The notes under the pieces: model-generated
What the model saw: only the letters and a program-made list of their open reading frames with translations
Databases searched by the model: none
What the model was told of the DNA's origin: nothing
IMG/VR virus record: IMGVR_UViG_3300037247_001285
Span: 1 to 26,094 of that record
Strand: one strand, 5' to 3'
Source of the DNA: a virus
Length of the DNA stretch: 26,094 bases
Translations under genes and position numbers: made by a program
Part shown: positions 2,936 to 15,315 of the stretch, one piece after another
How positions within the stretch are numbered: position 1 is the stretch's first letter
Layout of the letters: every line of letters begins with the position of its first letter

Positions 2936-3163
2936 GGACAGGGCTATTTCCTGTCCGACTTGTACATCGGGTTGTTCGTGTAAATGGATGGTGACGGACC
3001 ATTTGCCGCCTTTGATCTGGCGCAGGCTTTTTATTTCACCTATGCCTGGTGTATGTGTCCGGCGATATTCGGCACGGCAGGCATTGCTGTGAAATTCATG
3101 GGTGGGCCGGGTTGGTTCGAAGCGAACTTTGCAGCGTTCCAGTTTGCATTTTATTTTGCTCAT
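2927..3163 (-). CDS. Small zinc-finger-like protein
   Basis: A 78-residue basic protein. Its N-terminal half has C6-x4-C11, then F-E-P-T and H-S-N-A-C-R-A-E-Y-R-R at about 25-35. This resembles short zinc-binding modules of the CxxC...FCSxxCR type found in many phage and plasmid proteins, here with a His-containing second half. Residues 40-78 look like a small beta domain. The start ATG overlaps the intI stop (ATGA), so translation is coupled to the integron integrase. Zinc binding is inferred from Cys/His spacing; a DNA-binding or recombination-accessory role is suggested only by position between intI and xis. Confidence 0.65.
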   Translation of the reverse strand: MSKIKCKLERCKVRFEPTRPTHEFHSNACRAEYRRTHTPGIGEIKSLRQIKGGKWSVTIHLHEQPDVQVGQEIALSRD

Positions 3164-4134
3164 GATGTGCTTTGTTGTAGTAAACCCAATGGACTGGTTA
3201 CGCCAGCTGCACCCTTTGTGCTGACATGGGTATATATCATGGTTGTGCTGATGTGCTTGTGCCCGAGTAGCTGCTGAATGGTTCGGATGTCGGTTCCAGT
3301 CTCTAAAAGGTGTGTTGCAAAGCTATGGCGTAAAGTATGTGCGCCTACCGGTTTATTGATTTTAGCGTTGCGTGTTGATTTTTTTATTGCTTTTGATACA
3401 GCTGAATCATGCACGTGGTGTCTACGCAAAGCACCTGTACGTGGATCGGGGCCAATTCTTGATGCTGGGAATATGAATTGCCAGCCGAATTCTTTTTCTG
3501 CTTTTGGGTATTTTCTTGCGAGCGCGTAGGGCATATAGGCATCACCAAAGCCTTCACTTAAATCACTGTTATGAGTGCGCCTTACTTTTTCTATGTGGTG
3601 CTGCAGTTCGTTGGCGATGGTGGGTGGTAGCATAACTGTGCGGTCCTTGTTCCCCTTGCCTTCACGTACGGTTATTATGAGTCGATCAAAATCTACGTCT
3701 TTCACGCGAACGGATAAGGCTTCATTGAGTCGCAATCCTGCACCATATAAAAGTGAAACGATCAGGTAATTCTGCCCTGTGATTTTTGGCAACAATGCAG
3801 CAACTTCCGTTTGTGATAGCACTACTGGTAATCGACGTGGTTTCTTTGCATAGGCAAAACCCGAAATATCACCAATATCAATCTTGAGAATGTGCTTGTA
3901 TAAAAAAACGATGGCGTTGAGCGCCTGACGCTGAGTTGCTGCTGAGACTTGTCGAACACGTGCCAGGTGTGTCAGATAGGCTTTGATTTTTTTACCGGGA
4001 TCATCATCAGGATGTTTATTACACCAGGAGGCAAACCGTTTTATCCAGTGCAAGTATGCTTTTTCAGTACGCAATGACATATGCCTGAATCGCATAGTAT
4101 TTCGTATTGCTTCATTAACTTCACAGAGTTTCAT
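3160..4134 (-). CDS. intI: Integron integrase (IntI family tyrosine recombinase)
   Basis: A full-length 324-residue IntI. The N-terminal domain (about 1-95) has the family's LRTEKAY-x-x-W start. The catalytic residues are intact: R135 (GLRLNE), K160/K163 (GKGNKDR), H266-x-x-R269 (HTLRHSFATHLL), H292 (GHKH) and Y301 (MIYTHV). The IntI-specific insertion that binds extrahelical bases of attC is present at about 191-240 (EGFGD, MPYALARKYP, WQFIFP, RRHH). This insertion separates IntI from XerC/D and phage integrases. The product should join cassette attC sites to attI. The gene sits in the phage early operon, overlaps the next gene by ATGA, and has an attI-like site directly upstream (4134-4177). 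No good ribosome site is seen. Confidence 0.93.
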   Translation of the reverse strand: MKLCEVNEAIRNTMRFRHMSLRTEKAYLHWIKRFASWCNKHPDDDPGKKIKAYLTHLARVRQVSAATQRQALNAIVFLYKHILKIDIGDISGFAYAKKPRRLPVVLSQTEVAALLPKITGQNYLIVSLLYGAGLRLNEALSVRVKDVDFDRLIITVREGKGNKDRTVMLPPTIANELQHHIEKVRRTHNSDLSEGFGDAYMPYALARKYPKAEKEFGWQFIFPASRIGPDPRTGALRRHHVHDSAVSKAIKKSTRNAKINKPVGAHTLRHSFATHLLETGTDIRTIQQLLGHKHISTTMIYTHVSTKGAAGVTSPLGLLQQSTS

Positions 4135-4177
4135 GATTGTGTATATTTGCCTGGATGCCTATCAATATCTGTTATGC
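4134..4177 (+). repeat. attI-like site, left copy (attI_L)
   Basis: The segment between the intI start and the first core site GTTATGC (4171-4177) recurs in inverted orientation at 13107-13150 with 2 mismatches in 44 bp. The similarity stops at the core, as expected when different cassettes are joined at G|TTATGC. Its place, against intI and at the head of a cassette series, is that of attI. Confidence 0.8.
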
Positions 4178-4186
4178 ACAGCATCT

Positions 4187-4486
4187 TTAAAATGGCTTTG
4201 CGCTTTTGTTTTCGTCAGCGTTGAGCACTTCCGACACATACGCATCAAATGCTATCTTTCTGCAGCGGTCATCGCCTTGCGCGAACATTAGCTCAACTTC
4301 TAAATTATTATTTTTTTCTATCAATTCATTAATCTGTCGATTCTGTTTTTTTATATAACCTCGGTACTGATCTATTGACTCCTGTGAATCATTAATAAAA
4401 GAGATCGCCTCTGGGCAAACATTTTTTAATTTTGACCACCATTTTGGCGTGTAATCCCAAATGCTCCCATTCTGCATTTTGTGCAT
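4187..4486 (-). CDS. Cassette L1: hypothetical coiled-coil protein, 99 aa
   Basis: A hydrophilic protein with an N-terminal W-D-Y-T-P-K-W-W motif and a probable coiled coil at about 35-70, rich in Gln, Asn, Glu and Lys. I do not recognise a family. The frame is open up to 4531, but the upstream part is the attC hairpin. The ATG at 4486-4484 lies inside the core GTTATGC, at the cassette boundary, and is my preferred start; the next ATG is at 4474. No Shine-Dalgarno site is visible for either. It is the cassette nearest attI_L and so the most recently inserted on the usual model. Its stop lies 10 nt from the attI core. Confidence 0.6.
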   Translation of the reverse strand: MHKMQNGSIWDYTPKWWSKLKNVCPEAISFINDSQESIDQYRGYIKKQNRQINELIEKNNNLEVELMFAQGDDRCRKIAFDAYVSEVLNADENKSAKPF

Positions 4487-4554
4487 AACAAGCCGGTCAA
4501 CTGGGATATTCATTTCGCTTCGCTCATTCACACCAGTTACCTCAGTCGTTATGT
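4483..4554 (+). repeat. attC-like site A
   Basis: R'' GCATAAC (4483-4489) and R' GTTATGT (4548-4554) flank L'' GGTCAACTGG and L' CCAGTTACC. L'' carries one extra C relative to L', the extrahelical base that gives attC its polarity, here plus. The loop contains CGCTTCGCTC, similar to sites D and alpha. Confidence 0.8.
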
Positions 4555-4700: not shown

Positions 4701-4758
4701 ACATAACCAACCTTTCAAGCGGACTTAAAAAACAAGCCGCTTAACTCAAATGTTACCT
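4701..4758 (+). repeat. attC-like site B
   Basis: R'' ACATAAC (4701-4707), a 5-nt spacer, L'' TTTCAAGCGG, a 14-nt loop, L' CCGCTTAACTC, then R' GTTACCT (4752-4758). It has the short 59-base-element format of aadA-type cassettes, including the single extra C in L''. This is the clearest polarity signal of the left array (plus strand). The stop of the L3 ORF lies in L'. Confidence 0.85.
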
Positions 4759-5069
4759 GGTAGTGGTTGCCAGCCATCAAGCCAAGCATCAGGGAACCCG
4801 CCTTGCCCAACGGGCGCAGCAAACCCCCATTCTTGTATATCTCCACGGTTGCGTCCTACAAAATACAACCCATTCCATTTAGTCATAGAATAATGATCGC
4901 ATTTATCGTACTGGCTAAGATCATCTTTAAATTTAAGCAATACCGGCGTACCATCATGTGGCGCACTATCCATACATAACAAGCCATTAGAGCGGGACGC
5001 ACCCAAGTCCGTAGCACATGCGCTACCGTCATGGTGTTTGTGGCAAATTGGACATGCTTCATCTTTCAT
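4746..5069 (-). CDS. Cassette L3: DUF551-like protein
   Basis: The C-terminal part from about residue 33 has the pattern of DUF551-type domains common in phages: SAPHDGTPVLLKF near the start, a W-N-G-x-Y-F-V-G-R strand, WGFAAPVGQGGFPDAWLDGW and a terminal QPLP. Function of the family is unknown. The first 32 codons coincide with attC site C and include C-P-x-C-H-x-x-H. An alternative start, ATG at 4973, lies directly after the core at 4974-4980 and would give a 75-aa protein of just the domain. The long start has GAGGGG 8 nt upstream, so both are possible. Confidence 0.65.
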   Translation of the reverse strand: MKDEACPICHKHHDGSACATDLGASRSNGLLCMDSAPHDGTPVLLKFKDDLSQYDKCDHYSMTKWNGLYFVGRNRGDIQEWGFAAPVGQGGFPDAWLDGWQPLPGNI

Positions 5070-5098
5070 GCTGTGCGCCCCTCAATTAATCGTTACTA
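4974..5098 (+). repeat. attC-like site C (long type)
   Basis: R'' ACATAAC (4974-4980) with L'' GGGACGCAC, and L' GTGCGCCCCTC with R' GTTACTA (5092-5098), 125 bp overall. The R''-flank AAGCC matches site A, and the CCTCA-AATC flank of R' matches sites A and E. The L'' to L' pairing is shorter than in A, B and D, and polarity is not clear from it. Confidence 0.6.
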
Positions 5099-5388
5099 GC
5101 CATATTTTCAATTAGGCGTGTTTGTTCTGCTATGGCTTCAGCCCCAGCGATTCTCTTACCGCCCCAATATTGAATATAAGCCTGTCTGTCATTACCGTGA
5201 CCACAACAAGCGTTCATAATTTGACCAGGTAGTGTGCCGAGACAACCATCATGCCCTTCTTTAGTCGGTAGCTTTTTACATTTAGCACAAATCCCGAACT
5301 GCCCACTTCCAATCATGTCACTTGTGTAAGGTCGATTTACACATAACAACACGTTCAAATCTGACTCGCTACACTTCGTTTCGCTCAC
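5086..5388 (-). CDS. Cassette L4: conserved CCGHG-motif hypothetical protein
   Basis: Contains CAKCKKLPTKEGHDGCLGTL and, at about 60-65, MNACCGHG followed by AYIQYWGG. This set of Cys/His motifs marks a small family of phage and accessory proteins of unknown function. Zinc binding is likely (C-x-x-C plus CCGH). The frame is open to a GTG at 5388 inside attC site D. Since cassette sequence begins only at about 5346, the internal ATG at 5316 (76 aa, just before G-S-G-Q-F-G) may be the true start. No convincing Shine-Dalgarno sequence precedes either. Its stop lies 16 nt before the L3 long start. Confidence 0.65.
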   Translation of the reverse strand: MSETKCSESDLNVLLCVNRPYTSDMIGSGQFGICAKCKKLPTKEGHDGCLGTLPGQIMNACCGHGNDRQAYIQYWGGKRIAGAEAIAEQTRLIENMASND

Positions 5389-5409
5389 AATTTAACTCCT
5401 ACGTTACAT
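5341..5409 (+). repeat. attC-like site D
   Basis: R'' ACATAAC (5341-5347), spacer AACAC, L'' GTTCAAAT, loop with CTTCGTTTCGCTC, L' ATTTAACTC, R' GTTACAT (5403-5409). L'' has one extra C (plus polarity). The R''-spacer-L'' start is nearly the same as the minus-strand site alpha in the right array. Confidence 0.85.
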
Positions 5410-5652
5410 TGCCTTGTCTATAGCTTCATCAAGATCAACGCCATTCAGCACATGATTGTCTGGTGTAATACCCGCAAACACACCACCATTACTTATGGTT
5501 TCTAAATCACGCTCTCTTAACCATCTATAGCGTTTAGCATCGCGTTCAAGTTCGGCAATGTAACCAGCCGGTGAGCGATACGATTCTTTAAAATTACATC
5601 CACATAACCCGTTAGCTATTGGCATTTGGCATTTTTCACAAATTACAAACAC
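5404..5652 (-). CDS. Cassette L5: YRWLRE-family phage hypothetical protein
   Basis: An 82-residue protein. The N-terminus has C-E-K-C and C-G-C (residues 5-19), a likely small zinc ribbon. The middle ELERDAKRYRWLRERD and the end L-D-E-A-I-D-K-A-M match a common phage hypothetical family whose role is unknown. Translation would start at a GTG at 5652; the first 20-30 codons overlap attC site E, so the N-terminus is uncertain. The stop TAA lies inside the core GTTACAT (5403-5409), a compact cassette end. It is read leftward with the other cassettes from PL. Confidence 0.65.
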   Translation of the reverse strand: MFVICEKCQMPIANGLCGCNFKESYRSPAGYIAELERDAKRYRWLRERDLETISNGGVFAGITPDNHVLNGVDLDEAIDKAM

Positions 5653-5675
5653 GCTCGTTACCTCAATCGTTATAC
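5558..5675 (+). repeat. attC-like site E (left half uncertain)
   Basis: R' is GTTATAC (5669-5675), preceded by CGTTACCTCAATC, which matches site A's L' flank. For R'', ATGTAAC (5558-5564) is complementary to the cassette start and is followed by AGCCGGT as in site A. ACATAAC at 5602-5608 is the alternative. L''-L' pairing is weaker than elsewhere. Confidence 0.45.
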
Positions 5676-6518
5676 AAATAATCTACTTTGTGCCTGCTGT
5701 TCACTGCAGGACTGATTAAGCCAAACTACCTCTGTTCGTGTTGCTGTCCCTCTACCAGCGCTAATACGGGCTAATGTTGAGTGACGGCTCCAGCCATTCA
5801 ACGTATCGTTGTAGATCTCGCTGTCATAGCCGGAAATAACGACCATCCCAACTACCTCTTTTAACTTGATCAGTAACTTGAGATGGTCATCGTCTGTTAA
5901 TTCATGATTGTAATAACGTCTGTTTTGCCCCATCTTTCGAGTCGAATGAACGTAAGGAGGATCAATGAAAAATAAAGTGTCCGATCGGTCATGATTATCA
6001 ATAACCTCGATCGCCGATTTATTCTCAATAACTACCGCCTGTAGTCGATCGATAAAAGATTTAATCTGATTTGGATACTTGGCCCATAAATGTGCTGCAG
6101 TACCGTATTTACGTGCGCTGTCTATTCTGAATCCGGTTTTCCCCTTAGTTGCACCGGCAGACCCAAACCCTTGATGTGAGCGAACCAATGTGCGCCTCGC
6201 TTGTTCAATACGGTCATCTGTATGCTCGTAACTGGCATTAAACTCATCACGTGCGTAAGGTGTCACAGATAGTCTTCTCTGTAATTCGAGTCCGGCTTCC
6301 TGGTCTTGTAATACTCGAAATACATTAACAATATCGCCATCTAAATCGTTGTAGACCTCGCTCATTGATCGAGGTTTTTGCAGCAACACTCCGGCCGCAC
6401 CACCGTATGGCTCGACGTATGTGTAATGATCAGGGAAAAACGACATTATCCAGGGTGCAAGTCTGAATTTAGCGCCGTGGTATCTCATTATTGGGTGTTT
6501 AATTTTAGTTTGTTCCAT
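5670..6518 (-). CDS. dam: Cassette L6: Dam-type DNA adenine N6-methyltransferase (D12 class)
   Basis: A methyltransferase of the MT-A70-unrelated D12/Dam class. Counting from an ATG at 6536: motif X RYHGAKF (18-24), the SAM-binding motif I VEPYGGAAGV (41-50) and the catalytic DPPY (192-195). It would methylate adenine at N6 in double-stranded DNA, plausibly to protect the phage from host restriction. The short target-recognition region suggests a 4-base site, but specificity cannot be read. I prefer the ATG at 6518 because it follows the core GTTATAC by 4 nt, where cassette sequence begins; the upstream ATG is inside attC. The TAA stop is in the core at 5669-5675. It is by far the largest left cassette. 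Confidence 0.85.
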   Translation of the reverse strand: MEQTKIKHPIMRYHGAKFRLAPWIMSFFPDHYTYVEPYGGAAGVLLQKPRSMSEVYNDLDGDIVNVFRVLQDQEAGLELQRRLSVTPYARDEFNASYEHTDDRIEQARRTLVRSHQGFGSAGATKGKTGFRIDSARKYGTAAHLWAKYPNQIKSFIDRLQAVVIENKSAIEVIDNHDRSDTLFFIDPPYVHSTRKMGQNRRYYNHELTDDDHLKLLIKLKEVVGMVVISGYDSEIYNDTLNGWSRHSTLARISAGRGTATRTEVVWLNQSCSEQQAQSRLFV

Positions 6519-6522
6519 ATTT

Positions 6523-6584
6523 GTATAACCACTCATTCGTTCTGACCTTCGCTATCGCTCGACAGACAATTCAATCTGTTAGGC
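6523..6584 (+). repeat. attC-like site F (distal end of left array)
   Basis: R'' GTATAAC (6523-6529), complementary to the start of its own cassette (GTTATAC at 5669), and R' GTTAGGC (6578-6584), with a TTCTG/CAGA-type L pair and a CGCTATCGCTCG loop. L'' again carries the extra bases (plus polarity). Beyond it lies ordinary phage sequence. Confidence 0.65.
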
Positions 6585-7694: not shown

Positions 7695-7724
7695 ATAGTA
7701 AAGCAGTGTTTACTTCAATGTCAA
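7695..7724 (-). promoter_or_regulatory. Early leftward promoter PL
   Basis: On the minus strand, TTGACA (7724-7719) and TACTAT (7700-7695) are separated by 18 bp. The arrangement is identical to PR at 9639-9668. Both elements are covered by repressor operators (7720-7735 and 7698-7713). It should drive the whole left arm, including the cassettes and intI. Confidence 0.75.
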
Positions 7725-7735
7725 CACTTCTTTAC
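7698..7735. promoter_or_regulatory. Left operators OL1/OL2
   Basis: Two 16-bp sites, GTAAAGCAGTGTTTAC (7698-7713) and GTCAACACTTCTTTAC (7720-7735), 22 bp apart. The first is the exact reverse complement of the right operator at 9650-9665. The second differs by one base from the reverse complement of 9628-9643. Consensus GTAAA-N6-TTTAC. Binding by the repressor at 9143 and by Cro is inferred. Confidence 0.75.
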
Positions 7736-8774: not shown

Positions 8775-9146
8775 TTAGATATTGTCTAACCTCTTCGCGG
8801 TTGAGTTAATTGTTCCTTCAAAACTCGACAAAAAGCCCAGTATCGTTTTTAGTTTTTCTGGGTCTGTAGTACGCCCATAAACAGGGTATGGGCTCTGATC
8901 AATCTTTGTAATCCATCCTTCTTTCAGTAGTTTTTTAATCATTCTGGTTGCTGTTGTGTAGGGTAGCGTTGCCATTTCTGATATCTTAGACATATTGGCG
9001 TAGTTGCCACCTTGTGCACATAAACCCACTGCCGCCAAAATACACATCTCTGACCAGGTAATGCCTAATACTTCGTGGGTCTCTCGATGTTTCTGAAGAA
9101 TGCAGTTTGCAAGAATTGCGTCTTTTAGTGACTCGGCTTCATTCAT
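8775..9146 (-). CDS. MarR-like winged-helix regulator paired with the repressor
   Basis: A 123-residue protein with the MarR-type wHTH plan: helices at about 1-45 (ITWSEMCILAAVGLCAQGG), the DNA-binding segment at about 52-78 (MSKISEMATLPYTTATRMIKKLLKEGWITK) and a wing with G-R-T-T-D. Its ATG overlaps the repressor stop (ATGA at 9143-9146), so the two are co-translated. The repressor lacks a cleavable domain, so this partner may sense or relay the induction signal, or act as an antirepressor or co-repressor. This functional link is inference. The stop lies in a 17-bp inverted repeat (8774-8790). Confidence 0.75.
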   Translation of the reverse strand: MNEAESLKDAILANCILQKHRETHEVLGITWSEMCILAAVGLCAQGGNYANMSKISEMATLPYTTATRMIKKLLKEGWITKIDQSPYPVYGRTTDPEKLKTILGFLSSFEGTINSTAKRLDNI

Positions 9147-9601
9147 GAGAAGGTACTCGTGCAGGCTTTGATGAGTAGTGCAATTTCTTTATCGGTCAGC
9201 GTTTCACCCTTGATGATCTCATCATAGGTAACGCTAATCGCCACGGCTTTTTCATTGTCGGTTAGTGTTAACTTGTTTTTTTTGATGATTCGATCAACTA
9301 GTTGGATGGCGTCGCTGAGTACAGGTTTATTGATATTTGCATATGCAGTCGGTACATCTTCACTTATTCCATGTTGAGATGCGGTGATAAACCTTTCACC
9401 TACGCCATTTTTCACCCACTCAGGGTTGATGTTTTTATTGCGCTGCATGGCAAGCAGCGGATCGCGCTCTGGTGTGGTGAGCTCTCTTTCCCATTGAGAT
9501 ACTGCGGCTTTGGTGACTTCAGCTATTTTTCCAAACGCTTCCTGCGATAGCTTCAGCTGCTCTTTGCGGAGATATTTGATTCTTTGGCCTGGTGTGTTCA
9601 T
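9143..9601 (-). CDS. CI-like repressor (XRE HTH) lacking an S24 peptidase domain
   Basis: A 152-residue regulator. Residues about 5-60 form a classic XRE/HTH_3 domain: QRIKYLRKEQLKLSQEAFGK, then VTKAAVSQWERE as the recognition helix. The C-terminal part (about 95-150) is helical and acidic and would mediate dimerisation. There is no Ala-Gly cleavage site and no Ser/Lys dyad of LexA/CI repressors, so RecA-driven self-cleavage is not expected. It is transcribed leftward from the three-operator region 9602-9665, divergent from cro. The start ATG abuts operator 9602-9617 with no Shine-Dalgarno site. Confidence 0.85.
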   Translation of the reverse strand: MNTPGQRIKYLRKEQLKLSQEAFGKIAEVTKAAVSQWERELTTPERDPLLAMQRNKNINPEWVKNGVGERFITASQHGISEDVPTAYANINKPVLSDAIQLVDRIIKKNKLTLTDNEKAVAISVTYDEIIKGETLTDKEIALLIKACTSTFS

Positions 9602-9665
9602 GTAAACATTACTTTACATTTTAATTGGTAAAGAGGTGTTGACACAGAGGTAAACACTGCTTTAC
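9602..9665. promoter_or_regulatory. Right operator region (three 16-bp operators)
   Basis: GTAAACATTACTTTAC (9602-9617), GTAAAGAGGTGTTGAC (9628-9643) and GTAAACACTGCTTTAC (9650-9665) share the GTAAA-N6-TTTAC plan, with centre spacing of 26 and 22 bp. The last two cover the -35 and -10 of PR, and the first abuts the repressor start codon, an OR3-like position for autoregulation. Confidence 0.8.
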
Positions 9666-9668
9666 TAT
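9639..9668 (+). promoter_or_regulatory. Early rightward promoter PR
   Basis: TTGACA (9639-9644), 18 bp, TACTAT (9663-9668). Initiation about 7 nt downstream would fall at or next to the cro ATG at 9676, so the cro message appears leaderless. It should drive cro, the CII-like gene, the right cassette array and replication genes. Confidence 0.7.
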
Positions 9669-11223: not shown

Positions 11224-11228
11224 TTGTT

Positions 11229-11567
11229 ATGCCAATGCTTGTATTTCATGATCGAGCCATAGAGCCTGTTGACTTGGGCATTCAAAAACAGTCAATCAGA
11301 CGTGGGCATCATATAAACGTAGACGATAGGTTGTTTTTACGTTCGGCATTAACAAATTCTCTGCTGAGAAGCACGCATTGTGATGAGGTTCAAGATATTC
11401 ATATTAATAGCAATACCGCAGTGATTTTAAACAACCAGCTACTGAGTGATGAAGATAAACATCAGCTGGCTATCGATGAGGGGTTTAACAACTTCAAAGA
11501 TATGTTACAGCACTTTCGTGATACCGGTGGTTTGCCGGTTGAAGGCCAACTGATTAAGTGGTTGTGA
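11229..11567 (+). CDS. ASCH-like small phage protein, 112 aa
   Basis: The K-Q-S-I-R-R motif near residue 20 followed by G-x-x-I-N-V-D-D resembles the KxxTIR signature of ASCH (PUA-like) domains. The C-terminal DEGFNNFKDMLQHFRDTGGL and L-I-K-W-L match a phage version of the fold with D-G-F ... I-x-W. ASCH proteins bind nucleic acid or modified nucleosides; the activity here is not predictable. Its ATG (11229) lies within the core heptamer GTTATGC, with a weak AGGT upstream. It is the first gene of the right array and is followed after 13 nt by CCATAAC. Confidence 0.55.
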   Translation: MPMLVFHDRAIEPVDLGIQKQSIRRGHHINVDDRLFLRSALTNSLLRSTHCDEVQDIHINSNTAVILNNQLLSDEDKHQLAIDEGFNNFKDMLQHFRDTGGLPVEGQLIKWL

Positions 11568-11650
11568 TGGCTAAATGCAACCATAACAATTGAGGTAAGA
11601 GTTAGTTGGTGATTGTGTATCTATGTGATTTTAACTTAGAGGTGATACGA

Positions 11651-12040
11651 ATGACACTATTACAATTATTGAAACAACAAGGTAAAGCGTTGGTGATTAA
11701 AGGCGCTCAAGGGAGCGGTAAAACACTACTAGCAACGCAATTGGCAAAAGCCGAAGGCGTATATTCTAATGACCATATCGAGCAGGTTTTTGGAAAAAAT
11801 ACATTTAACCACTGGTTAAACGAGTTGCCAGACGTGGTAATTGTGGAAGGAGCGCCAAAACCTAAACATATCGACGTAATTAAATCAATGATTGCGAATG
11901 ACAAAATAACCCATAATCGTAAGGGGAAGGAGCCGGTAGAAGTAAAAACACCGATGTTTGTTTTCTGCACAAGTGACCCGGAACTTCTTAATTTTGGAGC
12001 GCAAGATCGTCGGTTCTACGTGCTTGAACTAGATGCATGA
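11651..12040 (+). CDS. Minimal SF3/AAA-like P-loop ATPase, 129 aa
   Basis: Contains a Walker A loop GAQGSGKT (about 19-26), a Walker B-like strand DVVIVEG, a sensor strand MFVFCTSD and a final DRRFYVLEL box. The order matches superfamily 3 phage helicases, but the protein is a bare core without origin-binding or primase domains. It may be an oligomeric ATPase that assists or interferes with the phage or host helicase. The ATG at 11651 has GAGGTG upstream and starts next to the fold; the longer frame from 11606 is less likely. It lies in the right cassette block, probably as its own cassette. Confidence 0.65.
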   Translation: MTLLQLLKQQGKALVIKGAQGSGKTLLATQLAKAEGVYSNDHIEQVFGKNTFNHWLNELPDVVIVEGAPKPKHIDVIKSMIANDKITHNRKGKEPVEVKTPMFVFCTSDPELLNFGAQDRRFYVLELDA

Positions 12041-12070
12041 CGAATTTAGTTATGGGCCAACGGAGGTACG

Positions 12071-12286
12071 ATGGCAACAGCAAATGTGGTCTTTAAAATT
12101 ACAGCTGACAGTGCCCCAGCACGATATGGCTTCTGGTTCGCGAAGGCAAGCATAAGAGTTGCAAGCGGAACTCCTACACCATTTCACCAAATTATGGTGA
12201 ATGCAGGTTTGTGGAAGCGTCGCTTTGTGCCGCCTAACGCACTTAATAAGTGGTCGCCACGTTTTTGTGGCGATCCAAGCCGATAG
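12071..12286 (+). CDS. Right-array cassette: basic hypothetical protein, 71 aa
   Basis: A basic protein beginning MATANVVFKITADSA, with likely beta strands and a W-K-R-R-F-V-P-P region near 50. The ATG at 12071 follows GGAGG by 4 nt and a core-like GTTATGG by 15 nt, the same core-SD-ATG order as in other cassettes. The last 16 codons run into attC site beta, so the native end of the protein probably comes from the site itself. No family recognised. Similar attC-encoded C-terminal tails occur in ordinary integron cassettes. Confidence 0.55.
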   Translation: MATANVVFKITADSAPARYGFWFAKASIRVASGTPTPFHQIMVNAGLWKRRFVPPNALNKWSPRFCGDPSR

Positions 12287-12310
12287 GCGGCCTTAATTTA
12301 TTTGTTATGC
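12232..12310 (-). repeat. attC-like site beta
   Basis: On the minus strand, R'' GCATAAC (12310-12304) and R' GTTAGGC (12238-12232) enclose a strong stem. GGATCGCCAC pairs with GTGGCGACC, so the R''-proximal arm has one extra base, giving minus polarity. It separates cassettes R2 and R3. Confidence 0.65.
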
Positions 12311-12332
12311 CTTTTTAGGCAGGAAATTAAAA

Positions 12333-12512
12333 ATGGAAACATATATTTTAGTTAGTTTTTGGATGATGATAATTGGATTTGTATTGAAGATACTTATAAC
12401 CGCATTCTCGACACACCCGAGAGAACAAACGTACTCAATTGGGCTTGATGTAGCTGACGCGATAATTAAAATTCCTTTTTTCTTGTGGGCTGCATATTTA
12501 TTGTGGGCATAA
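12333..12512 (+). CDS. Cassette R2: small membrane protein, 59 aa
   Basis: METYILVSFWMMIIGFVLKI opens a first transmembrane helix. A polar loop with T-H-P-R-E-Q follows, then a second hydrophobic segment (IPFFLWAAYLLWA) ends the protein. It should span the inner membrane twice. It fills the cassette exactly: the core GTTATGC (12304-12310), AGGA, the ATG, and a TAA stop inside the next core GCATAAC (12507-12513). This fit strongly supports the gene despite its size. Small membrane cassettes in phages may block superinfection or defence systems, but no function can be assigned. Confidence 0.65.
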   Translation: METYILVSFWMMIIGFVLKILITAFSTHPREQTYSIGLDVADAIIKIPFFLWAAYLLWA

Positions 12513-12582
12513 CGTGGAAGCTAACCGGAGAACGGAATGAGCGAAGCGAACGAAGTGAGTCCGGTTGAGCGTGTTGTTATGC
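12507..12582 (-). repeat. attC-like site alpha
   Basis: Minus-strand R'' GCATAAC (12582-12576), spacer AACAC, L'' GCTCAACCGG, a loop with CTTCGTTCGCTTCGCTC, L' CCGGTTAGC and R' GTTATGC (12513-12507). The extra C in L'' fixes the polarity as minus. R''-spacer-L'' and loop closely resemble left-array sites A and D. Confidence 0.85.
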
Positions 12583-13112
12583 CGTGTGTTGCTGTTCTGT
12601 GTTGTGCAACAAATAGTATTTATAAAACGATGCCGGAGGTTGATGCGTATGATATTACGCGGAATGTGCTTACATACCCAGGTGGGTTGCCGGTAGTAGC
12701 GCACCCACCTTGTAGAGCATGGAGCGCATACACTCGGCACCAGGCTAAACCTGAACCAGGCGAAGCTGAACTGGGATTATGGTGCGCGGATAAGTTGCGA
12801 GAATGTGGCGGCGTGTTAGAACATCCGGCGCACTCTCATTTATTTGAAGCAGCAGGGATGCCAAAGCCAGGCGAAGAACACTCGGAACTTAAAACGGTTT
12901 CTGTGTGGCAAGCATGGTGGGGATACCCAATGCGAAAAGCTACATGGCTTTGCTTTAGCAAAATAAATACGATGGATTTAGATTTTCCATTTTTACTACG
13001 TGCGCCTGGTGCAGATCGGAGAAGACAACAGCTTATGAGTAAACACGAAAGAGCCGCAACTTGCCCGGATCTAGCGCGATGGTTGGTAGATGCTGCGATG
13101 TTAGCGGCATAA
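12579..13112 (+). CDS. Cassette R1: HPPC-motif protein (methyltransferase-like)
   Basis: A 177-residue protein with V-V-A-H-P-P-C-R-A-W-S near 45 and GGVLEHPAHSHLFEAAGMP near 85. The Pro-Cys after a hydrophobic strand and the later E-H-P recall the PC and ENV motifs of cytosine-5 methyltransferases. No clear SAM-binding F-x-G-x-G is present, so activity is uncertain. Related proteins occur as phage hypotheticals. The start lies inside core GTTATGC (12576-12582) and the TAA inside core GCATAAC (13107-13113), so the gene spans its cassette. It is adjacent to attI_R. The frame extends upstream to 12537 only through attC sequence. Confidence 0.65.
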   Translation: MPCVAVLCCATNSIYKTMPEVDAYDITRNVLTYPGGLPVVAHPPCRAWSAYTRHQAKPEPGEAELGLWCADKLRECGGVLEHPAHSHLFEAAGMPKPGEEHSELKTVSVWQAWWGYPMRKATWLCFSKINTMDLDFPFLLRAPGADRRRQQLMSKHERAATCPDLARWLVDAAMLAA

Positions 13113-13150
13113 CAGATATTGATAGGCATTCAGGCAAATATACACAACCA
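13107..13150 (-). repeat. attI-like site, right copy (attI_R)
   Basis: GCATAAC (13107-13113) followed by a 37-bp stretch matching the reverse complement of 4134-4177 with 2 mismatches over 44 bp. It lies between the last right-array gene and the primase start, so it is placed as attI_L is relative to intI. No integrase gene is adjacent, so IntI from 3160-4134 would act in trans. Confidence 0.8.
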
Positions 13151-13174: not shown

Positions 13175-15013
13175 TTGACTGAATTTCAGGCGCATTACGA
13201 AGATAACGCGGTTTTTCACCAGCACGGTGAATATGATGCTGAGTTTCCGATTATTTTTGTTACTGAAGATAATTTTGCCAAAGAGCTGCATGAGTTTATG
13301 GGCTGGATGGTGGTGTTTGTTGCCAGTCCGAGCAGTGACCTGGCAAAGGTGCTTAATTGGCACAATGGCCAATATCCTGATGCGCATTTGTTGCTGGCTG
13401 GCAACCTTGAGACTAAAGACAGTATTCGGTTTTATAAAAAGCTGGCCAAGCAATTTGGTGCAGATACTATTTTTCCCAGCTTTAAGTTTCCTAACGATAA
13501 GCTCAAATTTCTTGAACGTGATGGTGCAGTTTTATCGGCTGCTGATATTGAGGGGATGTCTGACGATGAGAAGATCGCTTGTATAAGGGTTGCAGTTAAA
13601 TCTTCATTTCGACACATGATGATCGAGCAGGCGGGTGTGGCGGTTAAGCGATCTATTCTCAAGCAGGTGAAGAAAAAGGAAAGGCTACTAGCTGCACCGC
13701 CGCCGATCCCCGCGCCCCCCGCTGAAGACGACGGCAGCGTCATAAATCCTGGTGCTGATTTTACGTTGCAGGCCTTGTTGCGTGATTTTGTTGTGTTACA
13801 TGGCCATGGCAGTGGGGTGTTCGATGATCGGCGCTGTGAGTTTATGAGTGTGACTGATTTTCGTAACAGTGTGGGGCGCAAGGCTGCTGATGAGTTTTTT
13901 AATTCGCCTTATCGCAAGGTTATATTCCGGCGTAATGTTGTTTTTGATCCGACGATTAAGAAGACACCGGTTGGTTTTGTTAATTTATACCGTGGCATTA
14001 AGTTAAAGCCAGAGAAAGGGGAGTGTAAGCGCCTGTTGGATATTCTGTTTCATTTGTGTGAAAGAAACGATGAAGTGTTCCAGTGGGTGTTGAGTTGGAT
14101 TGCTTATCCCTTGCAGCATCCCGGTGCAAAGCTGATGACGGCTGTGGTTATTCATGGGCGTGAGGGTGCTGGTAAAAATTTATTCTGGACAGCTATTCAG
14201 CGAATATATGGTGAGTATGCAACCATTATTTCTCAGAAAAATCTGGAAAGTGGTTTCAACGGATGGGCTAGTCGCAAGTTGTTCATTGTTGGCAATGAGG
14301 TAATTAGTCGGCAGGAAATGTTTCATGTTAAGGGTGCGATGAAGGATTATATTACCGGCGATGTGTGGTACATCAATGAGAAGAATATTGCTGAGCGTAT
14401 TGAGGCCAATCGTGCCAATTTTACTTTCTTTAGTAACTTTCTGCAGCCGGTGGCGCCAGATAAAGATGATCGACGTTACCTGGTGCTGTGGACACCACCA
14501 AAGCAAAGCAAGGAATATTATAAGGCTGTGGCTAACGAACGTGATAATGGGGGTACTGAGGCTTTGTACCATTACCTGCTGAATTATGATCTAGGTGATT
14601 TTAATGAATACACAGAGCCATTGATGACTGAAGCCAAGATGGATCTGGTTGAGCTATCAATGAAAAGTGATGAGCGGTTTGTTGAGAAGTGGCTTAATGA
14701 GGATCTTTCTGTACCGCTGATCCCTGTGTTGACTTCTGAGCTATATCGTGCCTATAAGTTTTGGTGTCGGTGTGAGGGCGAAAAGTTTTTTGTGAGTGCG
14801 ACTGAATTTGGTACGTTATTAAACAAGCATGAGTTGGTGGATAAAAAGCCGGATCAACGATATTACCGTGGTCTGAATAAGCTGAAGGGAACATTTGCTG
14901 TTCCTTACGGTAGTGAGCCCGAAGAAGATAAGGCAATGGCCAACTGGTTGGGTAGTTGTAATGATGATTTTGCTGTTGGGTTTAGTGAATGGACGGGTGA
15001 CGCACGTGATTAA
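13175..15013 (+). CDS. Phage primase/helicase (Toprim-like N-terminus, SF3 helicase)
   Basis: A 612-residue replication protein. Residues about 25-105 look like a Toprim-type fold (IIFVTEDNFA, VVFVASPSSDLAKVL, AHLLLAGNLETKD), though the acidic D-x-D pair expected after the second strand is missing. A Pro-rich linker follows at about 174-184. The SF3 helicase core has Walker A GREGAGKN (328-335), Walker B KLFIVGNEV (368-376) and motif C ending in DDRR (about 415-434), like P4/NrS-1-type (DUF5906) proteins. It should unwind the origin, which probably lies directly downstream (15025-15281). TTG is the likely start, with AAGGGG and AAAGG upstream. It is the first gene after attI_R. Confidence 0.85.
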   Translation: MTEFQAHYEDNAVFHQHGEYDAEFPIIFVTEDNFAKELHEFMGWMVVFVASPSSDLAKVLNWHNGQYPDAHLLLAGNLETKDSIRFYKKLAKQFGADTIFPSFKFPNDKLKFLERDGAVLSAADIEGMSDDEKIACIRVAVKSSFRHMMIEQAGVAVKRSILKQVKKKERLLAAPPPIPAPPAEDDGSVINPGADFTLQALLRDFVVLHGHGSGVFDDRRCEFMSVTDFRNSVGRKAADEFFNSPYRKVIFRRNVVFDPTIKKTPVGFVNLYRGIKLKPEKGECKRLLDILFHLCERNDEVFQWVLSWIAYPLQHPGAKLMTAVVIHGREGAGKNLFWTAIQRIYGEYATIISQKNLESGFNGWASRKLFIVGNEVISRQEMFHVKGAMKDYITGDVWYINEKNIAERIEANRANFTFFSNFLQPVAPDKDDRRYLVLWTPPKQSKEYYKAVANERDNGGTEALYHYLLNYDLGDFNEYTEPLMTEAKMDLVELSMKSDERFVEKWLNEDLSVPLIPVLTSELYRAYKFWCRCEGEKFFVSATEFGTLLNKHELVDKKPDQRYYRGLNKLKGTFAVPYGSEPEEDKAMANWLGSCNDDFAVGFSEWTGDARD

Positions 15014-15024
15014 GGTTGATAACT

Positions 15025-15281
15025 GTCTAGGGTGCCGAGGGTTGTGTCTAGGGTTATTTTACAACCCTAGACAGTTATTCCCTATTGTTTTCATTGGGTT
15101 AGTGCGTGTGTCTAGGGTGCCGAGGGTTATAACGTAAAGTGCGTTACGTACGCACGCACGCGCGCGTGTATGTCAAATATATACATATACCCTCGGCACC
15201 CTAGACAAGTAAGTTAAGTAAATGATTTTAATAACAGAATTCTGTCTAGGGTAGGGTCGACATGCCCTCGGCACCCTAGAC
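15025..15281. other. Probable replication origin with 17-bp iterons
   Basis: GTCTAGGGTGCCGAGGG occurs at 15025-15041 and 15110-15126, and its exact reverse complement at 15190-15206 and 15265-15281. Half-sites GTCTAGGGT occur at 15046, 15064-15072 (inverted) and 15244. Between them lie a 29-nt alternating pyrimidine-purine tract (15145-15173) and an AT-rich stretch (about 15174-15189). No ORF occupies 15014-15312. Iterons, an unwinding-prone centre and the adjacent SF3 helicase gene together suggest the phage origin. It may also be a regulatory binding array. Confidence 0.7.
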
Positions 15282-15315
15282 AGGGCTGATATAACAATAA
15301 AAACAGGGGGATGTG

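Follow-up and report, generated by a model that had tools for sequence, protein, structure and literature searches.

The right array of this phage is very probably the second array of a phage-encoded integron, in which a single integrase (IntI) would serve two attI sites and cassette genes lying in reverse would be read from the phage promoters PL and PR. The window, meaning the whole stretch of DNA that was analysed, is a 26,094-nt record from IMG/VR (IMGVR_UViG_3300037247_001285), which carries a repressor, divergent early operons, a phage integrase and a terminase-like gene, and is read as a temperate phage genome. The sites, their geometry, the direction of the genes, the operators and the identity of R2 as a cassette elsewhere are established at the level of sequence.

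The right array consists of exactly two cassettes, R1 and R2, and no third was detected. As the earlier note had proposed, both are delimited exactly by attC sites and attI_R, with G|TT cuts bounding 12513-13112 and 12238-12512; its cassettes were exact, while its limits (12239-12513 and 12514-13112) were one base off. Read directly, the sequence shows both genes stopping at the TAA within the GCATAAC core; gene R1 ends in the alpha core and starts 23 nt beyond beta. The R1 product is probably a two-helix membrane protein, for which a family search gave no match. The outer core of beta has no partner R''. Two or three further cassettes had been suggested from heptamers at 11226, 11581 and 12049, but these were not borne out, as the heptamers have no attC partner and scores within 11226-12231 do not exceed 7.9. 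Upstream of the right array, 11606-12040 encodes a short protein resembling the ATPase part of a primase (DUF5906), possibly a truncated paralogue of the 13175-15013 product.

Table 1. Features of the two arrays and of the early operons, with positions in the window.
Feature	Position	Strand	Remarks
Integron integrase IntI	3160..4134	-	NCBIfam TIGR02249, 418.8 bits against a cut-off of 265
attI_L	4134..4177	+	adjoins intI start; cut after G 4171
attC A	4483..4554	+	score 46.5; R'' pairs 10/10 with own start
attC B	4701..4758	+	score 25.8; own start 9/9; best covariance-model match in 26 kb
attC C	4974..5098	+	score 25.8; own start only 4
attC D	5341..5409	+	score 23.6; own start only 4
attC E	5558..5675	+	score 21.2; own start 11/11
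Cassette F gene	5670..6536	-	D12-class adenine DNA methyltransferase
attC F	6523..6584	+	degenerate, end of left array; score only 4.6; own start 12/12
OL	7698..7735		two operator copies, with PL-like hexamers 7724-7695 (-)
CI-like repressor	9143..9601	-	
OR	9602..9665		three operator copies, with PR-like hexamers 9639-9668 (+)
attC beta	12232..12310	-	score 32.9; strong inner hairpin
Cassette R1	12238..12512	-	275 bp; cores at both ends; beta R'' pairs 8/8 with own start, 4 with neighbour
Gene R1	12333..12512	+	59-aa hydrophobic protein; stop is core TAA
attC alpha	12507..12582	-	score 38.5; DNA fold with R and L stems
Cassette R2	12513..13112	- (integron orientation)	600 bp; cores at both ends; alpha R'' pairs 9/9 with own start
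Gene R2	12537..13112	+	start codon and GGAG inside attC alpha; stop is core TAA; phrog_12600
attI_R	13107..13148	-	closes the right array on its right side; cut falls between 13112 and 13113 (minus-strand G)
D5/primase-helicase gene	13175..15013	+	immediately right of attI_R

The intI reading frame is intact. IntI is at most 47% identical to the integrases in the cultured-phage collection, and its nearest relative (77% identical) is in another IMG/VR phage, G001; searching IMG/VR for relatives of IntI or attI returned this single phage only, a further match (L002) being distant and partial. The candidate attI adjoins the start of intI with its G|TT cut facing the array, position and core being read directly. 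The attI pattern ATTTGCCTNNNTGCNNATNAATATCTGTT, with up to 3 mismatches, matched in the 26 kb only at 4145-4173 (+) and 13111-13139 (-) and not once in 100 shuffles, which upholds attI_R as a real site. It is an inverted second copy of about 38 nt of attI and differs from attI_L at 2 positions in the shared stretch (read directly). We infer that IntI acts on both. One IntI and two near-identical attI sites also make the better argument for one cassette pool supplying both arrays, which had been claimed earlier from likenesses of alpha to A and D. The AACACG spacer is indeed common to alpha and D, while the loop motif of alpha and A (TTCGCTTCGCTCATTC) is generic. A close variant of it is present in the P1 class 1 attC and such motifs are common in unrelated attC loops, so that alone it does not prove a common pool, and this argument was dropped.

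It is unlikely, though this is the alternative that survives best, that the left array is a working integron and attI_R an unused chance inverted duplication, with R1 and R2 as retained passengers. The right array does hold only two cassettes, and turnover there was seen in no relative; against this, the copy is trimmed to about 38 nt and placed exactly at the core of the last cassette, in the orientation needed for capture, and it is there that R'' of R2 pairs with its own start at all 9 of 9 bases.

The 16-nt operator has 5 matches in the whole window (2 at OL and 3 at OR) against 0.42 expected, and its copies overlap outward-facing TTGACA-18-TACTAT hexamers at PL and PR; judged by these sequences, the early operons are lambda-like. 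As the same 16-mer is found at PL and PR, the left array and intI are placed in the PL operon and the right array in the PR operon. This agrees with the earlier proposal of a second cassette series with its own attI in the PR operon, to which the PR-like hexamers at 9639-9668 also point. A search with one consensus only found no LexA box. A promoter-like match (10/12) at 4120-4147 (+), considered as a candidate Pc, would run antisense to the cassette genes, and such matches are no commoner than in shuffles. Directly past the primase gene, at 15020-15290, are several direct and inverted copies of CTAGGGTGCCGAGGG, an iteron-like cluster that is perhaps a replication origin. Left of the phage integrase, 415-445 resembles the 3' end of a tRNA-Leu gene (TGGTGCCGAGAAGAGGACTTGAACC) and is a probable phage attachment site, with host DNA at 1-415.

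DNA-level relatives of the whole phage, or of attC alpha, were not found among cultured phages, and searching IMG/VR by the primase gave none. The nearest relatives have little else in common with this record, so there is no empty-site comparison for 12238-13112. The earlier note had named as contrary evidence related phages carrying these genes in a fixed order with breakpoints unrelated to the cores; none came to light, as no phage with the same gene order as the 26-kb stretch was found.

In both arrays the attC sites face attI canonically and every cassette gene runs the opposite way; intI is itself canonical relative to attI, and only the cassette genes are reversed. For all seven scored attC sites the gene is on the opposite strand, so the classic placement of attC at the 3' end of the gene is not seen. 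Instead attC lies at the 5' side, often with the start codon, and the stop is often the core TAA. The left genes A, C, D and E apparently start inside their attC (read directly). The earlier reading of R1 and R2 had missed this reversal inside the cassettes, with attC supplying the 5' sequence.

The reversal bears on the second alternative, which we consider improbable, under which the phage picked up part of an integron from a host chromosome, the origin suggested for prophages of Vibrio anguillarum and Shewanella, and the arrays are now a passive, inert remnant. Such a capture route has been described (PMC9892861), and F, together with C and D by own-start pairing, looks decayed. However, host-type control arrays do not have reversed genes, intI has kept an intact frame, the second attI copy lies precisely where the array of the other early operon ends, and IntI is at most 47% identical to the cultured-phage integrases, its sole near relative found being in another phage.

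Scoring of the attC sites used a model of the arms that leaves the loop free; its training set was 19 canonical attC sites taken from three published phage-borne integrons (P1 class 1, Shewanella M16-3 and Vibrio p16), with no site from the window among them. A covariance model built from truncated canonical attC had been tried; it only gave matches of up to about 60 nt and missed alpha, beta and the longer controls, and was therefore replaced. The null was 200 first-order Markov random sequences of the same length, in which scores of 20 or more occurred 0.075 times per window and the highest was 25.6. Within the 26 kb, seven sites stand above this noise, and each lies at a cassette border; the left array has five of them and the right array two. 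A, alpha and beta exceed the null maximum, as do B and C by a narrow margin; D and E are below it, yet above the 0.075-per-window level and at the expected places. All other scores in the 26 kb are at most 16.4, the top one being alpha read backwards, and this gap between the strands (38.5 on minus, 16.4 on plus) makes the orientation of alpha clear. A separate earlier scoring gave alpha 18.0. The attC-like sites which the earlier note had called at 12507-12582 and 12232-12310 were thereby confirmed on the minus strand, with scores (38.5 and 32.9) above those of all 200 null sequences.

The expected attC structure is present, with R''/R' and L''/L' stems, an extra base in L'' and spacers of 5-6 nt; F fails on score. 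In alpha and beta the spacers have the canonical lengths of 5 and 6 nt and L'' contains the extra base; the geometry of alpha, in which this base follows the third L'' base, is that of aadA-type attC. The lowest-energy fold of beta differs from the attC fold, and alpha folds on either strand.

In a real cassette R'' pairs with the cassette's own first bases, which are at its far end in a linear array. Contiguous own-start pairing ranges from 4 bases in C and D to 12 in F (Table 1) and sums to 67 over the eight cassettes, where the neighbouring R' gives 38; of 40,320 cassette assignments, only 2 reach 67. On this test F is a true though degenerate cassette end, and the right array comprises R1 and R2. 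It is hardly credible that the inverted repeats belong to an ordinary phage operon, as transcription terminators or as hairpins controlling translation, and resemble attC by accident. The hairpins do contain or adjoin ribosome-binding sites and start codons, and alpha can fold on both strands; against this stand the scores of alpha and beta, their spacers and L'' bulge, and the pairing of R'' with the start of its own cassette, hundreds of bases off, for which a terminator would have no use.

The R2 protein had no match in Pfam or NCBIfam. Its AlphaFold model (mean pLDDT 79.8, pTM 0.79) has C5 DNA methyltransferases as best folds, with M.HhaI and DNMT3 at Z of about 8 and a best Foldseek E of 5e-3. 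The family has conserved H-P-C and EHP positions and motif I is not evident; from the model, a DNA-modifying role is plausible. Homologues in cultured phages align from about residue 17, which suggests that the first residues (MSEANEVSPVERVVMP) are encoded by attC; an alternative start may lie at 12579. In five phage contigs (L099, L120, L211, L210 and L184, the first two nearly identical in sequence) the R2 homologue adjoins attC or lies between attC sites in the reversed layout. The attC of L099 has the L boxes of alpha and encodes GPVERRVMRP where R2 has SPVERVVMP. The R2 homologues scanned in cultured phages have no adjacent high-scoring attC, the sole isolated score being 25.1 in phage Persinger, about 1 kb off; the R2 gene family is therefore not always a cassette. 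No R2 homologues were found in plasmids.

Reversed cassettes were surveyed by scanning IMG/VR for the alpha L box, which returned at least 119 stretches, and as the selection used a piece of alpha the counts are not population rates. Among the matches listed, at least 63 stretches have two or more attC, up to 19. Full-length genes in attC-attC cassettes, again among the matches listed, comprised 92 reversed, 13 classic, 15 both and 87 neither, and the same count in four control integrons gave 0, 18, 1 and 15, respectively. Initial counts of gene direction by ORF length were made noisy by the shadow ORFs of GC-rich phages, and the full-length criterion took their place. Among the proteins encoded by reversed cassettes are N6/N4 and C5 methyltransferases and Mom. 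Among the matches listed, one terminase family was matched by 14 of 36 reversed-cassette contigs, and IntI was present in only 4 of 44 surveyed contigs, each time with attC alongside. Two reversed arrays, L093 9597-12563 and L053 2024-3287, lie between the large terminase (terL) and portal genes, a gap that is a possible insertion hot spot; they were met among 79 terminase relatives, free of the alpha/attC selection bias. A bacterial control with the same DNA pattern matched 11 of 369 genomes, about as many as the pattern read backwards.

The phage with the 77% identical IntI, G001, has a lone reversed cassette of 298 bp away from intI, the R'' of which pairs with its own start over 10 bases. 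It sits inside a small gene with a signal-like N-terminus, which as occupied stops after 29 codons; deleting the cassette in silico between two G|TT cuts gives an open frame of 140 aa. No homologue of this restored frame was found in cultured phages. Elsewhere in the G001 contig (L237 17903-17921) the distal portion of attI (GGCAAATATACACAAT) recurs beside a tRNA-like gene in the tail operon, without a core alongside. A further contig of 55 kb (G024; L235/L233) has thirteen attC in one direction at both contig ends, next to intI, probably one array spanning the ends of a circular genome. In Virus Rctr41k (KX853513; L013 6641-10101) about six long attC in one direction follow IntI; its cassette genes, a methyltransferase included, run in the classic direction, and it is absent from the accessible portion of the list in PMC9892861.

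In the proposed two-attI integron, IntI would be made from the PL operon and each early cassette run would end in an attI. Cassettes would enter at attI through the folded bottom strand of attC, in canonical orientation; IntI1 recombines phage attC sites with a preference for the bottom strand (PMC9892861). Since the genes are reversed, PL and PR rather than Pc would transcribe them, toward attI, and a new cassette would always be placed in line with the phage operon. Ribosome-binding site and start codon would often come with the attC at the 5' side, and in several genes the core would provide the stop. We infer that induction switches on expression of the cassettes, whose products would act in DNA modification and counter-defence. 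A wider proposal, which we hold to be evenly balanced between right and wrong, is that phages own a cassette pool distinct from bacterial integrons. In it attC would be a mobile 5' leader (ribosome-binding site, start codon and N-terminal codons like ..PVERxVM..) and the core a stop, insertion at attI or a secondary G|TT would be expressed at once, and DNA-modifying enzymes would be a prominent cargo; the phage studied here would run two such arrays, one per early operon, from its single IntI.

Integrons are viewed as bacterial devices and phages as their occasional carriers; recurrent reversed cassettes would make phages users. Reversed cassettes carrying methyltransferases in phage operons would explain one route for swapping modification and counter-defence genes, and it becomes testable whether the direction of a cassette gene is set by who transcribes it. 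They also give a search rule, attC facing against the gene with the stop in the core, for arrays that annotation expecting attC at the 3' end may miss. No description of reversed cassette arrays in phages was found in the literature searched, with subscription papers and preprints outside the search, and we found no second example of two attI sites with reversed cassettes.

Among known systems, the Shewanella prophage vB_SspM_M16-3 (MZ568829) likewise has, in one prophage, one intI and two arrays, each from the same kind of attI (PMC9892861). It differs in being called a cryptic prophage, with an IntI that shares 95% identity with the integrase of a chromosomal integron in Shewanella (PMC9892861), and in the classic direction of its cassette genes. 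Phage CALINs (TJE1, P12002L and PH101; PMC9892861) share phage attC arrays without a neighbouring intI and methyltransferase cassettes, and the one P12002L attC scored in our scan also has a reversed gene. However, TJE1 and PH101 are called typical and the attC directions of P12002L divergent, PMC9892861 describes no general reversed class, and these CALINs have no second attI. Reverse-oriented spirochaete integrons also depart from the usual relative orientation, but in those it is the integrase gene that is described as reversed (PMC9668308), whereas here intI is canonical and the cassette genes are reversed. With chromosomal and class 1 integrons the phage system shares the IntI family, attI at the intI start, the attC geometry with the L'' extra base, G|TT cores and the canonical attI-attC order. 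Canonical cassettes have attC at the 3' end (PMC4670013), and cassettes are said to be oriented for Pc-driven expression by the choice of the bottom strand (PMC11023631); here, unlike in those integrons, the genes are reversed with attC at their 5' side, phage early promoters point toward attI, and a second attI lies in another operon. By its integrase, attI and attC this is an integron, yet no carrier of classic cassettes.
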